From a virus: 27,333 bases of DNA. The notes below the pieces were generated by a model. It saw nothing but the letters and a program-made list of their open reading frames with translations, did not search any database and was not told where the DNA came from. The position numbers were made by a program, and so were the translations under genes. Location: IMG/VR virus record IMGVR_UViG_3300035698_011340, positions 1 through 27,333 of that record; one strand, 5' to 3'. Position 1 is the stretch's first letter. Every line of letters begins with the position of its first letter. This document shows positions 3,117 through 12,515 of this stretch, in pieces.

Positions 3117-4196
3117 CTATTTGCCCTCATCGCCCGTGGAAGTCAACCCGCCATCGCGCCATTTGCGCATCGCATTGCGCGCGATCCGCTGCTGATTGAC
3201 GCCAGCGGTGTAGGTCGAGATCATCTGTCGGGACAGCCCGGTTACCGACATGATCTCTTCGTCAGTGCATCCTACCTCCGCAAGATTGACGCAGGCCGAC
3301 TTGCGCAGCCCGTGGGAGGTGTATTTATGCTCCTTGAGCGGGGCAAGTCCCGGCTTGGCCATTTCACGGCCCCAGGCGGCGTGATACTGCTCCGTGGTGA
3401 ACATCTTGCCCATGGGCTTCAGTTTGCCGGCAAGGACCATCCAGCCGCGGGCCTTGAGGTCCTTCAGGACCGGGACCAGGCTGGGGTGTGCCGGAACCTT
3501 CAGGGGCTTCTTGGTCTTCTGCTGGACAACCTCGATCTCCGGCCAGTCGCCTGACCAGTCGATATGCGACAGCCGCATCTTCAGACAGTCCGATATCCGC
3601 TGCCCGGTGTATCGCTCCAGCTGCACTGTCACCCACAGATCGTATCGCATGTGCTTGTCGCACAGATCGAACGCCCATGCCGGCCACGGCTCGCGCCCGA
3701 CCTTCCGGTGCTTGAAGCGGGGTGTGTCGTTGACCGGGTTCCGGCTGGCGCGTCCGCGCGGTATCGCCCATGCGTAGAGGGATTTGATCACTGACAGGTA
3801 ATGGTTGGCCTTGGCCTTCTGGTCTCCCATGGAGTCGCGCAGTTCCAGCAGATCCACGGGCGTTATGTCGTCGGGGGAGAATTCGCCGAGACGGGACCGG
3901 AAGTCCAGCAGGTAGTAGGCATAGTTGCGCTGCGTGCTGGCCTGCAGGCCGAGATAGTCCGGCGACGCCATGTAGGCGTCCACGACCTGGTGCAGATGGC
4001 CCCTTGGGTCATCGCCGCTCAATCGCTCTATGTCTGCCCAGAATTCCTGAGTTTGCGGGTTGCCCTTGATCCTGACCCGCTTGCCTGATTTGTCCGTTCC
4101 GCGACCTGGTTGGTAGTAGAAGTAATCCCTGCCCTTGGTTGTGACGCGATGGACCCCAGGCGGCAACTCAACCATGAGCCGCTTCCTTTTCCCCAT
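3117..4196 (-). CDS. int: Phage integrase (tyrosine recombinase)
   Basis: 359 residues. ATG 4196 (MGKRKRL) has AGGAAG about 8 bases upstream and overlaps the end of the preceding gene. The N-terminal part (about 1-60) is a small DNA-binding region with aromatic-rich DYFYYQPGRG, typical of arm-binding domains; about 65-165 is the SAM-like core-binding domain; 170-345 is the catalytic domain. Catalytic residues visible: R200 (TGQRISD), K227, H295 and R298 (SHGLRKS), and nucleophile Y329 (ISTYTAG). The second histidine/tryptophan position reads L321 in TGLSRQ. It should integrate the phage at attP, probably the repeat-rich region just downstream. It is the last gene of the leftward operon. Confidence 0.93.
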   Translation of the reverse strand: MGKRKRLMVELPPGVHRVTTKGRDYFYYQPGRGTDKSGKRVRIKGNPQTQEFWADIERLSGDDPRGHLHQVVDAYMASPDYLGLQASTQRNYAYYLLDFRSRLGEFSPDDITPVDLLELRDSMGDQKAKANHYLSVIKSLYAWAIPRGRASRNPVNDTPRFKHRKVGREPWPAWAFDLCDKHMRYDLWVTVQLERYTGQRISDCLKMRLSHIDWSGDWPEIEVVQQKTKKPLKVPAHPSLVPVLKDLKARGWMVLAGKLKPMGKMFTTEQYHAAWGREMAKPGLAPLKEHKYTSHGLRKSACVNLAEVGCTDEEIMSVTGLSRQMISTYTAGVNQQRIARNAMRKWRDGGLTSTGDEGK

Positions 4197-4455
4197 GAAT
4201 GCGCTTCCTGATCCGCTCTCTAAGGTGATCATCATTGCCGGGCACGGGGTTCGGTTCAAGTGATTTCTGGTTCAGCCGGTCCATGGCGTCATTGATCTGT
4301 TGCCGGGACCATCTTGTGACACCGCGCAGAACCACACCTTTGGGGAGCAGCCCTTCGGCCACATAGCGCCGCAAGCTGGATGTCGATATCGACAGCAGGT
4401 AGGCTGCGGTTTCTTCATCGCACCAGTCGGGCGGGTAGGGCCGGAAGTTGGTCAT
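4168..4455 (-). CDS. HTH protein, probable excisionase or AlpA-like regulator
   Basis: 95 residues from ATG 4455, whose A is shared with the stop of the 43-residue gene upstream. Residues about 10-55 read DEETAAYLLSISTSSLRRYVAEGLLPKGV...VTRWSRQQI, the MerR/excisionase-type winged helix-turn-helix fold used by Xis, AlpA and DNA-binding domains of phage regulators. It overlaps the integrase start by 29 bases, so both are probably co-translated, as expected for an int-xis pair. A GTG at 4500 would extend it by 15 residues but lacks a ribosome binding site. Directionality factor is an inference from fold and position. Confidence 0.75.
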   Translation of the reverse strand: MTNFRPYPPDWCDEETAAYLLSISTSSLRRYVAEGLLPKGVVLRGVTRWSRQQINDAMDRLNQKSLEPNPVPGNDDHLRERIRKRIHGEKEAAHG

Positions 4456-6734: not shown

Positions 6735-7336
6735 CACGCCACCTCCTTTGAAACCTGCGGTTTCGGAACCACGATGCCGCGCACCCTGCATTCGTTGTAG
6801 AGCGCGATGGTATCGGCCAGGTCGCCGTCTGCGGTGTGGGGGGAGGTTGGTGGCCGGCCAAGGATGCGCTCGACTGCCTCGACAAGCTTGAGCCTGCCGA
6901 CGCCGAGTTCCTTGCGACAGGCATACATCGTGTCGAACGTGGGCCGCTCGCCATAGCGGTCAGGCCTGTCCAGCCGGCGCTGTTCGCCCCTGACGATCTT
7001 CTGGTCATAGGCGACGCTGAACCCGACAATGAGTTCGCACTGGTCCACCAGTTCATCGTAGCGCGTCAGCACATCGACAATCGGCTCGCCTTCGGCCTCC
7101 AGTTGCTCGATGGACAGTCCGTTGATGTTAAAGGCGTCGCGATGGTTTTCCGGCCTCAGAACGTGGTCGGACCAGCCGTCCGGCCTGATCAGGCTGAACA
7201 TGGAGTCCATCTGCGTGCCGTCAGCATCCAGCAGGGCGGCACCAAGCGCGCACATCCGGGGCTGTTCAGGATGATCGGCTCCGTTCTTGTAATTGAACAG
7301 GCCGGTGGTTTCGGTATCGAGAATAAGGGCTTTCAC
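6734..7336 (-). CDS. DnaQ-like 3'-5' exonuclease (DEDDh)
   Basis: 200 residues with a GTG start at 7336 overlapping the previous stop (GTGA) and AAGGAGA 10 bases upstream. Exo I motif DTETTG gives D7 and E9; Exo II gives D111 (GFSVAYD); Exo III gives H167 and D172 (HTADGDLADT). This is the full DEDDh set of the DnaQ/RNase T superfamily, using two metal ions to remove nucleotides from 3' ends. In a phage recombination cluster it may process ends for RecT or act in replication fidelity. It is a stand-alone exonuclease without a polymerase domain. A second GTG at 7363 would add nine residues but breaks the coupling. Confidence 0.88.
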   Translation of the reverse strand: MKALILDTETTGLFNYKNGADHPEQPRMCALGAALLDADGTQMDSMFSLIRPDGWSDHVLRPENHRDAFNINGLSIEQLEAEGEPIVDVLTRYDELVDQCELIVGFSVAYDQKIVRGEQRRLDRPDRYGERPTFDTMYACRKELGVGRLKLVEAVERILGRPPTSPHTADGDLADTIALYNECRVRGIVVPKPQVSKEVA

Positions 7337-9457: not shown

Positions 9458-9856
9458 TTAGAACGGGGGCTTGGTGGTGAGGTGGTCGATTGGGCGGTTG
9501 GGGTTGTAGAGAGGTTCAGACGTGACCTCGTTCCAGCCGGCCCATTCGCGCAATTCGGTCATGTAGTTGAATTCTTCTTCGGTGATCGGGTTGTTGGCGA
9601 GCCATGTCCATTGATCGTATGGGTCGCGCTCTTTGCCGCAGACTTCGCACCGGTAGACTTCATCGGCGTCGAGTTCGTCGTTTTCGTCGACGGACTGCTC
9701 CAGCCATATCCGGGCCGGAACCCACGGGCCTCCCTTGACAAGCCGGCGCTTGAACCATCCGCATTGCGGATCACCATCATGAACGGCAGTCCTGCCCTTG
9801 GTCATGGCGGTGTGGTGCCAGCGGTAAAGAACGTGTATCGGGGTGGGCTCACGCAT
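9458..9856 (-). CDS. Conserved phage hypothetical protein with CxxC
   Basis: 132 residues from ATG 9856, overlapping the preceding gene by 8 bases. Rich in tryptophan and with a single C70-x2-C73 pair (YRCEVCGKERDPYDQWTW), plus basic patches early (KRRLVKGG). It may bind a metal but only one cysteine pair is obvious. Not recognised beyond resemblance to early-region proteins. Confidence 0.65.
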   Translation of the reverse strand: MREPTPIHVLYRWHHTAMTKGRTAVHDGDPQCGWFKRRLVKGGPWVPARIWLEQSVDENDELDADEVYRCEVCGKERDPYDQWTWLANNPITEEEFNYMTELREWAGWNEVTSEPLYNPNRPIDHLTTKPPF

Positions 9857-10190
9857 TGCGCTGGGCTCCGACCATGCGTCCGGCGGGCCGTGTCACATAG
9901 GTGAGTGCGACAGCCGCCTCGAAACGTTTGAGGGTATCGCTGGTGAGCGCGGCATGTGGTGTGTCGGTCTGGCTGCGATCAGGACACCCCAGGTTGATCC
10001 AGCGCCGGAAATCATCTTCGCTCACGCGGGCGTAGGGTGACCAATCCAGTTTTTTCGTGCTGCCGTCAGGAAAGGCCGCTTCGCGTTCGGCCTTCTTGTG
10101 ACCGTCATCGTGGTCCTCTGCCCAGCACCACAAGGTGACGCCGCGCCAAGAGAACGCAGGGGTTGCGTCTGAATGAGGGTGATAGGCCAT
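9849..10190 (-). CDS. First gene of the leftward operon, unknown function
   Basis: 113 residues from ATG 10190 with AAAGGAG about 9 bases upstream. It contains YHPHSDATPAFSWRGVTLWCW near the start and a short helical C-terminus. I do not recognise it. It is the first gene after P_L, so it would be the earliest leftward product, a position often held by regulators or host-takeover proteins in lambda-like phages. Confidence 0.65.
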   Translation of the reverse strand: MAYHPHSDATPAFSWRGVTLWCWAEDHDDGHKKAEREAAFPDGSTKKLDWSPYARVSEDDFRRWINLGCPDRSQTDTPHAALTSDTLKRFEAAVALTYVTRPAGRMVGAQRNA

Positions 10191-10216: not shown

Positions 10217-10252
10217 AAGTTGGCAAAACACCAACCGAAAGTCAATAGGTCG
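10217..10252 (-). promoter_or_regulatory. P_L: leftward early promoter, left arm of a 36-bp perfect inverted repeat
   Basis: These 36 bases are the exact reverse complement of 10729-10764. Read leftward they contain TTGACT (10245-10240) as a -35 element, with operator TTGGCAAAACACCAA lying where the spacer and -10 should be. The first leftward gene starts 27 bases beyond. The -10 is weak by the E. coli consensus. Shared identity with the rightward promoter implies control by the same regulators. Confidence 0.8.
10220..10234. promoter_or_regulatory. Operator O_L1
   Basis: TTGGCAAAACACCAA, a dyad of TTGG and CCAA half sites. The same site reads TTGGTGTTTTGCCAA at O_R1. It overlaps the presumed P_L core. 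Confidence 0.75.
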
Positions 10253-10264
10253 ACAGAAAAAAAG

Positions 10265-10279
10265 TTGGCAAAACGCCAA
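10265..10279. promoter_or_regulatory. Operator O_L2
   Basis: TTGGCAAAACGCCAA, with perfect 5-bp half sites TTGGC/GCCAA. It begins exactly 45 bases from O_L1, upstream of P_L. Confidence 0.7.
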
Positions 10280-10314
10280 TCGATTTTTCTACGGGGCGAT
10301 TGATCTGGTGTGTA

Positions 10315-10626
10315 TCAGGCTATCTTGAGAAGGGCCTTCAGGACGGTAACGGCCTGCTCGCGAATGCGTGGTGAGGTGTCCCTGAGAAGGGCGTCGGCGC
10401 TGGGCGTGTCGGGGTGGTGGAATATGTCGAACGGGTCAATTCCCAGCGCTTCGGCAAATTCGGATGCCGCAATAGTGGTCATTTTGCGTTGATTGTTTTC
10501 AAACCGGCTGATCTGATCCTTGGATGTGTCCAGGCGGTCCGCCAGTTGTTGCTGCGTCAGATGCTTGTGCGTTCGCCACTCTTTAAGGTAGTGGCGCAAC
10601 GGTATATTGTGTCCGATGCGATCCAT
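10315..10626 (-). CDS. CI-like phage repressor (HTH_3 only)
   Basis: 103 residues. Residues about 11-66 form an XRE-type helix-turn-helix (LTQQQLADRLDTSKDQISRFENNQRK...EFAEALGIDPFDIF). The C-terminal 35 residues are helical. There is no LexA/S24 self-cleavage domain, so induction must work differently from lambda CI. It is transcribed leftward between the O_L and O_R pairs, exactly the lambda cI position, and would be expected to bind TTGGN7CCAA operators. ATG 10626 has no strong ribosome binding site. Role as lysogeny repressor rests on fold and location. Confidence 0.8.
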   Translation of the reverse strand: MDRIGHNIPLRHYLKEWRTHKHLTQQQLADRLDTSKDQISRFENNQRKMTTIAASEFAEALGIDPFDIFHHPDTPSADALLRDTSPRIREQAVTVLKALLKIA

Positions 10627-10701
10627 AGTGCTTCTGGCTTACCCTTGACCCGCCTGCCGGGACCCCACCGCAACAATACCAACTCCCCACAAAATTGAAG
10701 A

Positions 10702-10716
10702 CTGCCAAATTGCCAA
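10702..10716. promoter_or_regulatory. Operator O_R2 (degenerate)
   Basis: CTGCCAAATTGCCAA: the right half TTGCCAA is intact, the left half is altered. It begins 45 bases before O_R1, the same distance as between O_L1 and O_L2. The next bases CTTTTTT are also shared with the left side. It overlaps a possible repressor promoter. Confidence 0.55.
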
Positions 10717-10728
10717 CTTTTTTGATTG

Positions 10729-10764
10729 CGACCTATTGACTTTCGGTTGGTGTTTTGCCAACTT
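10729..10764 (+). promoter_or_regulatory. P_R: rightward early promoter, right arm of the 36-bp inverted repeat
   Basis: Exact reverse complement of 10217-10252. TTGACT at 10736-10741 is a good -35; a 17-18 bp spacer places the -10 at CAACTT/AACTTG (10759-10765), and the start of transcription then falls at or beside the ATG 10771. Operator O_R1 fills the spacer, so a bound repressor would block polymerase. Confidence 0.8.
10747..10761. promoter_or_regulatory. Operator O_R1
   Basis: TTGGTGTTTTGCCAA, identical to O_L1 on the other strand, within the P_R core and 9 bases before the cro-like start codon. Confidence 0.75.
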
Positions 10765-10770
10765 GCCGTC

Positions 10771-10998
10771 ATGAAACCGAAACACCCGCTTGCATTGTAC
10801 CGGAACAGGCTTGGCATTTCTCAGCAGGAATTTGCGGAGAAGGTGGGCGTGACCAAGTGGACGATAAACCGGCTCGAATGCCGTGAACGCACCCCCTCGA
10901 TGAGCCTGGCCAACCGAATTGTCCGCGAGACAAACGGAGCCGTGAAGGCCGATGACTTCCTGCCCGACGCTTTCGATGAAATGCAGGAGTCGGCATGA
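10771..10998 (+). CDS. Cro-like HTH regulator
   Basis: 75 residues. Residues about 5-60 are an XRE helix-turn-helix (LGISQQEFAEKVGVTKWTINRLECRERTPSMSLANRIVRETNG). It is the first rightward gene, directly after P_R, in the lambda cro position opposite the repressor gene. ATG 10771 has no Shine-Dalgarno sequence, and the promoter geometry suggests a leaderless mRNA. Its stop overlaps the next start (ATGA). Expected role: competition with the repressor at the shared operators during lytic growth (inference). Confidence 0.82.
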   Translation: MKPKHPLALYRNRLGISQQEFAEKVGVTKWTINRLECRERTPSMSLANRIVRETNGAVKADDFLPDAFDEMQESA

Positions 10999-11471
10999 TT
11001 TATTTCATTGAATGCGCAGGCAGAGTGAAGATCGGGTTTTCCAAAGACCCGCACAAGCGCGTGGTCAAGATCGGCAGCGATGCACCGTTTCCGGTGATGC
11101 TGCTTGGTGTGGTCGACGGCGACGAGGCTGGTGAGGCGGACATTCAGTCCCGATTTGCCGATTTCCGGCTGCACGGCGAGTGGTTCGACAGGTCCGACGA
11201 GATCATGGCTTACGTCAATACCCATTGTTTTATCCCGATAAGGCTGGTCCGCAGCAATTCCGAGGGAATGGTGCGGCTCGTCAAGTGGATACGCAGCAAG
11301 AGGGGGCGGGGGATGGCGCTCGCGGCGGAGTTAGGCATTGCGCAACCGGCAATCTGCCAATGGGCGGACATTCCTGCCGAGCGCGTTCTTGAGGTGGAGA
11401 GGATCACCGGGATATCCCGTCACGATCTGCGGCGCGACCTGTATGGCGCGAAGCCGGAAGCGGCGGCCTAG
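10995..11471 (+). CDS. GIY-YIG (T5orf172/Mug113-like) domain fused to a YdaS-like HTH
   Basis: 158 residues, coupled to the Cro-like gene. Residues 1-70 fit the small GIY-YIG branch: I2-Y3-F4, then V11-K12-I13-G14 for the YIG element, R22 as the conserved arginine, and HGEWF with E62 as metal-binding glutamate. Residues about 92-150 (LVKWIRSKRGRGMALAAELGIAQPAICQWADIPAERVLEVERITG) fit the YdaS/Cro-type helix-turn-helix that needs no cofactor. The combination could be a site-directed nuclease or a regulator with an inactive nuclease fold. Tyrosine to lysine in the YIG motif is common in this subfamily. Confidence 0.75.
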   Translation: MIYFIECAGRVKIGFSKDPHKRVVKIGSDAPFPVMLLGVVDGDEAGEADIQSRFADFRLHGEWFDRSDEIMAYVNTHCFIPIRLVRSNSEGMVRLVKWIRSKRGRGMALAAELGIAQPAICQWADIPAERVLEVERITGISRHDLRRDLYGAKPEAAA

Positions 11472-12011: not shown

Positions 12012-12515
12012 ATGATGGGTGACATCGGTCATAATTCATCCTTTGCGCAAGGCCAGTTGCGGGCGCTTGTCGAGCGCATCGAGCGATTGGAAGAAGATGG
12101 CAAGGCCATCAGCGCCGACAAGGCCGAGGTCTACTCCGAGGCGAAGGCCAACGGCTTCGATACCAAGATCATGAAGAAGGTCATCGCCTTGCGGCGGCGC
12201 GACGCTGCCGAGCGACAGGAAGAAGAGGCCATTCTCGATCTCTACATGTCGGCTCTTGGCATGATCCCGTCAGACAGGCCCGAAGAACAGCCCTCGCGTG
12301 CGCGCACGCACGAGGAACCGAACGACACCGCCGGGACAGGCACCCCTGCCACCCCCTTGCCCCCCGGTGATGTCGAAAACAGCAGTGGTGAGGATGCCCC
12401 CCAAGCCGCTGCTGGTGAGGAAGCAGGCGTTGATGTTGGTTGCCCCACCGTCCCATCAACGCCTGCCGCCCACGATCTGGACCCGCCGCCATTTCTGGAC
12501 AGCAAGGGGAGGTGA
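12012..12515 (+). CDS. Phage-encoded GapR-like (DUF2312) DNA-binding protein
   Basis: 167 residues; ATG 12012 (or 12015) with GAAGGAG upstream. Residues about 14-84 match GapR/DUF2312: [20 protein letters not shown], then [29 protein letters not shown] and [13 protein letters not shown]. GapR of Caulobacter is an essential nucleoid protein of about 90 residues that clamps overtwisted DNA and stimulates topoisomerases ahead of forks. Here a tail of about 80 residues rich in P, E, A and T follows, which is not part of the family. In a phage it may support replication or transcription of supercoiled DNA, or substitute for host GapR (inference). Confidence 0.88.

Follow-up and report, generated by a model that had tools for sequence, protein, structure and literature searches.

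The window analysed here, a virus record of 27,333 bases (IMGVR_UViG_3300035698_011340), contains a repressor gene with two divergent early promoters on its flanks that have operators in common (Table 1). A small Cro-like HTH gene is divergent from the repressor gene and lies directly behind P_R, and the MUG113/T5orf172 domain of the gene after it is GIY-YIG-like. An integrase encoded at 3117-4259 indicates a temperate phage; together with a RecT-like protein and an exonuclease it occupies the leftward side of the window, while a helicase loader and a terminase are encoded on the rightward side. The host is probably an alphaproteobacterium, because of the known relatives of the phage and because a GapR (DUF2312) DNA-binding domain, a family found only in Caulobacter among 14 control genomes, is encoded at 12045-12260 on the plus strand.

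Table 1. Genes, promoters, and predicted operators of the immunity region (window coordinates)
Feature	Position	Strand	Basis or remark
First gene after P_L, 113 aa; leader with AAAGGAG	9849..10190	-	No family match
Left 36-bp arm, P_L promoter with O_L1	10217..10252	-	Exact reverse complement of 10729-10764
P_L -10 candidate CAACTT, weak	10217..10222	-	Inferred; mirror of P_R -10
Predicted operator O_L1 TTGGCAAAACACCAA	10220..10234		Pattern match; within P_L spacer
P_L -35 TTGACT	10240..10245	-	Mirror of P_R -35
T run upstream of P_L, T7 on minus strand, matching that at P_R	10257..10263	-	Sequence
Predicted operator O_L2 TTGGCAAAACGCCAA, half-sites perfect	10265..10279		45 bp from O_L1
Repressor gene, 103 aa, HTH_3 plus two C-terminal helices	10315..10626	-	Domain matches, model
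Predicted operator O_R2 CTGCCAAATTGCCAA, one half-site degenerate	10702..10716		45 bp from O_R1
T run between O_R2 and P_R -35	10718..10723	+	Sequence
Right 36-bp arm, P_R promoter with O_R1	10729..10764	+	Exact reverse complement; 55-nt extension 93%
P_R -35 TTGACT	10736..10741	+	Sequence; TTGAC/TTGC at this place family-wide
Predicted operator O_R1 TTGGTGTTTTGCCAA	10747..10761		Pattern match and profile
P_R -10 candidate CAACTT, weak	10759..10764	+	Inferred from 17-nt spacing
Cro-like gene, 75 aa, HTH_3; mRNA predicted leaderless	10771..10998	+	ATG 35 nt from first -35 base
Second P_R-operon gene, MUG113/T5orf172 domain plus C-terminal YdaS/P22-Cro-like HTH	10995..11471	+	Domain matches

The first-pass annotation had proposed that a perfect 36-bp inverted repeat builds both P_L and P_R, with a short repressor gene between them, and our analysis bears this out: the two arms are exact reverse complements (the 36-mer has one forward and one reverse match in the window), each with a promoter and an operator. 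The similarity also runs outward beyond the 36 bp, as had been noticed, with ungapped extension giving 55-nt arms (10217-10271 and 10710-10764) that are 93% complementary and whose mismatches are grouped just inside the 36-mer. The flanks of the repressor gene reach a mirror alignment score of 48, where the best of 200 shuffles reached 13-16. Read outward, the arm sequence GACCTATTGACTTTCGGTTGGTGTTTTGCCAACTT consists of the -35, a spacer holding the operator, and the weak -10, at the last base of which the perfect identity ends; each arm is thus a complete early promoter, with the -10 assigned from the 17-nt spacing. A consensus scan found no sigma-70 promoter at the arms of this window; in S. 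meliloti, the -10 of sigma-70 promoters is poorly conserved (PMC3616915). Both sides have a T run between O2 and the -35, and the one upstream of the P_R -35 is a possible UP element.

A scan of the window for TTGGN7CCAA returned the sites at 10220, 10265, and 10747 and an unrelated copy at 6847, where 0.6 copies are expected per window and none of 100 shuffles got to four. The remaining site, O_R2, keeps one half-site, and its best match lies at exactly 45 bp (p=0.006), in agreement with the original description of operator pairs 45 bp apart on either side of the repressor gene with a degenerate O_R2. Each side has two operators, not three, with no other TTGGN7CCAA nearby, and a predicted operator overlaps each early promoter between the -35 and the inferred -10. 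The repressor had been described as short and lacking a cleavage domain, which is also what we find, as its 103 residues gave HTH family matches only, with no peptidase or recognisable cleavage domain. In a structural model (mean pLDDT 86), five helices form the HTH domain and just two short C-terminal helices follow it, at residues 77-81 and 86-102, so that by family matches and model the lambda-type C-terminal cleavage/oligomerisation domain is missing; a structure search returned general HTH matches only. The segment PDTPSADALLRD, conserved among the relatives, is a candidate dimer or inter-dimer contact.

Our results lead us to propose, with a probability of roughly 85%, that this is the immunity region of a temperate phage of lambda type, in a new form, for whose switch we infer protein binding, transcript starts, and cooperativity as follows. 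Two divergent early promoters, made of nearly the same DNA in opposite orientation, flank the repressor gene, and a repressor dimer on O1, between the -35 and -10 of each, would directly block RNA polymerase. A second dimer would occupy O2, 45 bp upstream and in the helical phase relation of lambda's 24-bp pair, and the dimers on O1 and O2 probably bind cooperatively. P_R would then drive cro as a leaderless mRNA, and P_L would serve the leftward exonuclease, RecT, and integrase side with a leadered mRNA. Equal control of the two promoters, a repressor promoter overlapping O_R2, and looping between O_L and O_R, all raised in the first-pass annotation, may apply as well.

Much of this plan is shared with known systems. 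Lambda likewise has its repressor gene between divergent early promoters, with O1 in the -35/-10 spacer and further operators upstream, and its P_L and P_R are also mirror-similar (54 columns, score 20 versus a shuffle maximum of 13-15). It differs from the window in having three operators a side, 20-24 bp apart, in its cleavable repressor of 237 aa, and in a cro leader of 18 nt that places the ATG 53 nt from the -35. Three operators a side are not universal in lambda-type switches, however, as the immC region of Rhizobium phage 16-3 has two, the annotated O_L1/O_L2 and O_R1/O_R2 that flank the C repressor gene; unlike in the window, the annotated 16-3 repressor gene encodes 263 aa, the operator centres are 17 and 26 bp apart, and the mirror is not significant (score 9). 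Small, non-cleavable, lambda-like HTH repressors are known from Gifsy-1 and Gifsy-2, whose GfoR/GtgR proteins, at 136 aa, are longer than that of the window, and whose induction is by LexA-controlled antirepressors (PMC3121763).

Relatives of the repressor were missed by a single repressor query, which found no useful viral-contig relatives and only unrelated HTH proteins in genomes, and were reached by alignment-based scans that gave 47 and then 80 IMG/VR repressor loci. Bradyrhizobium phage ppBjS10J-1 (OP596615) has the nearest named repressor (tblastn, 55% identity over 87 aa) and the same layout with an O_L pair 45 bp apart, but it differs from the window in its operator, CCTACCGTTTTGGTAGG, its O_R spacing, and its longest exact mirror of 16 nt. 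Further relatives are a Devosia plasmid and Rhizobium and Sulfitobacter phages; phage and plasmid collections contained no close DNA relatives of the window. When the flank upstream of the repressor was aligned with the reverse-complemented opposite flank, about 18 of 51 relatives in the first set scored above all 200 shuffles. In an automatic search of the second set, 22 of 57 non-redundant loci exceeded the 95th percentile obtained by pairing flanks of different loci, with about 3 expected. The first-pass annotation had also considered that relatives might keep the genes and not the repeats; many of those that we looked at keep both. Their operators vary widely (TACCN5GGTA, GTCACGN5CGTTAC, TGACTGAATTTCAGTCA, TGTCGAAATNNTCGACA, and others), and O1 lies between the -35 and -10 on both sides throughout, whatever the operator sequence. 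In the repressor tree, L088, L095, and L099 fall together with the window at moderate support (88/76). L088 has the TTGGN7CCAA operator of the window, and L099 carries a mirrored two-operator module with 45-bp spacing (2313-2366 and 3551-3604) that shares the window's asymmetry, its O_R2 being degenerate.

A comparison of 134 repressor regions ranks the window first for the length of its exact mirror, at 36 nt, followed by 28, 21, 20, and 19 nt, and in the same comparison lambda reaches 12 nt, P22 10 nt, and N15 and phage 16-3 8 nt each. The contrast with lambda drawn at the outset is therefore justified for the degree of arm identity, which is unusual, and not for the layout, which is ordinary and shared with lambda. 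The second-longest mirror, 28 nt (AAAATAGTAGTTGCACTAAAATTATAGT), occurs in L156 on the flanks of the repressor at 2501 and gives another example of early promoters that are almost identical.

The arms would owe their similarity to selection for control of both promoters by one repressor and, on top of this, to a copying event of fairly recent date, by gene conversion or inverted duplication, in which one arm was copied over the other; such copying is most likely, being the simplest reading of the 36-bp identity. Selection for equal promoter strength and affinity might alternatively have kept the identity perfect by itself, with recent copying unneeded, and in all relatives O1 and the -35 are indeed constrained. 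We regard this as rather unlikely, as the window's arms are identical also at bases outside the -35, O1, and -10, while those of same-layout relatives are identical over about 15-28 nt only, and those of lambda over still less. The window P_R segment is closer to the P_L of L088 (p 0.005) than to its P_R (0.035) and other relatives disagree, so that copying of P_L onto P_R is a direction barely supported.

The spacing of the operators was followed through the family in two sets of loci, the first with O1 picked by eye and O2 located by a profile scan over the upstream 80 bp, and the second analysed automatically after the spacing prediction had been set down. On the P_L side of the first set, significant O2 sites lay at 33-34 or 44-45 bp in 15 of 15 loci; in the second set, the spacing was 32-35 bp in 13 of 17, 43-45 bp in three, and 48 bp in one. 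The 45-bp spacing for which related phages were to be searched thus recurs, at 43-45 bp, but 32-35 bp is also common, and 31 of the 32 scored loci of both sets have one or the other between O_L1 and O_L2. The combined P_L-side spacings give a Rayleigh R of 0.87 at a period of 10.5 bp, with a mean phase of 2.25 where lambda's 24 bp corresponds to 3.0; the period is loosely bounded, with 10-12 bp fitting the left-side spacings about equally, and the peaks at 34 and 44-45 bp hold most of the signal. In a cross-locus control on the left side, a foreign operator gave 2 hits in 176 tests versus 17 of 22 for a locus's own operator. The P_R side is less regular (R=0.64), with spacings of 34-36, 44-45, 56, 66-67, and 76 bp as well as a group at 15-20 bp and one at 59 bp; the 15-20 bp group may arise because the TTGAC of the -35 was taken for a half-site, or from sites that are genuinely adjacent (L088, L095). 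The loci share ancestry and are not independent, so the p-values are optimistic.

The O_L spacings of the family correspond to the 24 bp of lambda lengthened by one or two turns of the helix, and a spacing apparently quantised by the helical turn is consistent with cooperative binding of neighbouring dimers. It is also conceivable, if doubtful, that the 44-45 and 34 bp spacings are set by the positioning of RNA polymerase or of the -35/UP region and not by contact between repressors. The -35 does lie between O1 and O2 with T runs upstream of both -35s, and a minimum spacing is required to clear it, but clearing the -35 predicts a lower limit and not a pair of narrow peaks separated by a single turn of the helix, nor would it leave the left side empty between 36 and 42 bp.

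O_L2 together with the adjoining T7 (10256-10279) is a terminator-like match on the minus strand, about 36 bp beyond the repressor stop codon, and the minus-strand fold of 10240-10320 has a z of -3.0; the element may thus, to judge by its DNA, serve as both operator and intrinsic terminator of the repressor transcript. The same features would suit a mainly terminating role with no operator function, which seems to us quite improbable given that the same T run lies upstream of P_R, there with a broken palindrome, and that in the relatives the operator pair stays equally spaced while its distance from the repressor gene varies. Least probable is that the repeat serves recombination or mobility, as the terminal repeats of a mobile element or as the borders of a segment that can invert, and that its overlap with the promoters is secondary. 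A perfect 36-bp repeat around one gene has that appearance at first sight, yet the arms comprise exactly the promoter and operators and stop at the -10, no transposase or recombinase lies between them, and the architecture is kept in relatives with diverged arms. In the 57 phage-family loci whose upstream ORF was read, a divergent Cro-sized ORF always lay to one and the same side of the repressor, with no flipped copy seen.

The two transcripts of the lambda-type switch that we favour are predicted to begin differently. With the cro start scored as the first ATG of the long frame after O1_R, this ATG lay 34-38 nt from the first -35 base in 39 of 45 loci, and a Shine-Dalgarno-like motif preceded it in one of 45; on the P_L side, distances from the -35 to the start were broad, commonly 51-58 nt (55 in the window), and 28 of 41 loci had such a motif. 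The fixed short distance and the near absence of Shine-Dalgarno motifs predict that cro mRNA is leaderless, and with normal promoter geometry the transcript would begin at the A of the AUG. The window agrees, with neither a predicted leader nor a Shine-Dalgarno motif before cro, and its P_L transcript is predicted to be leadered. O_R2, put forward as the one visible asymmetry of the region, is degenerate as described, but the predicted difference between a leaderless cro and a leadered P_L transcript is a second asymmetry. Leaderless mRNAs are known in S. meliloti (PMC3616915), and in immB of the Yersinia telomere phage PY54, whose prophage repressor is of another type than that of the window, they have been demonstrated by RACE for cI and cro (PMC4488713), where in the window the leaderless cro is a prediction.

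We give about even odds to a broader proposal, namely that HTH-only repressors of a large group of mostly alphaproteobacterial phages use operator pairs whose spacings step by whole turns of the helix and share the phase of lambda (24, 34, 45, 56, 66, 76 bp), implying dimers that touch across up to several turns without the lambda C-terminal domain, and that cro mRNA is leaderless in these switches. The family-wide helical spacing and the leaderless cro are the parts of specialist interest. The spacing series parallels in nature the classical experiments in which helical phase was varied for lambda repressor, and it offers a clear prediction for short repressors, testable in ordinary laboratory strains, and the fixed -35-to-AUG distance predicts leaderless cro in many phages. 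For two related cases, the Brucella phage BiPBO1 (PMC4729917) and phiLM21-like prophages (PMC12429752), operator prediction is reported to have yielded none; a mirror comparison of the repressor flanks finds operators at once, because each promoter contains one.

Pairs of TTGGN7CCAA 45 bp apart were uninformative as a lone search pattern, returning mostly coding repeats: 75 stretches in all viral contigs, none of them beside a recognisable relative of the window repressor. Two sets of repeats were also noticed. At the end of one viral contig (L086, 1-240), palindromes of TTGGTGNTTCGCCAAC that resemble the window operator form an array that is not beside a recognisable repressor relative and perhaps represents iterons within a replication gene. 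In L023 (4145-4273), ACTTGGGAATTTCCCAAGT occurs three times, at spacings of 52 and 45 bp, and these copies are possibly operators of an unrelated phage repressor.
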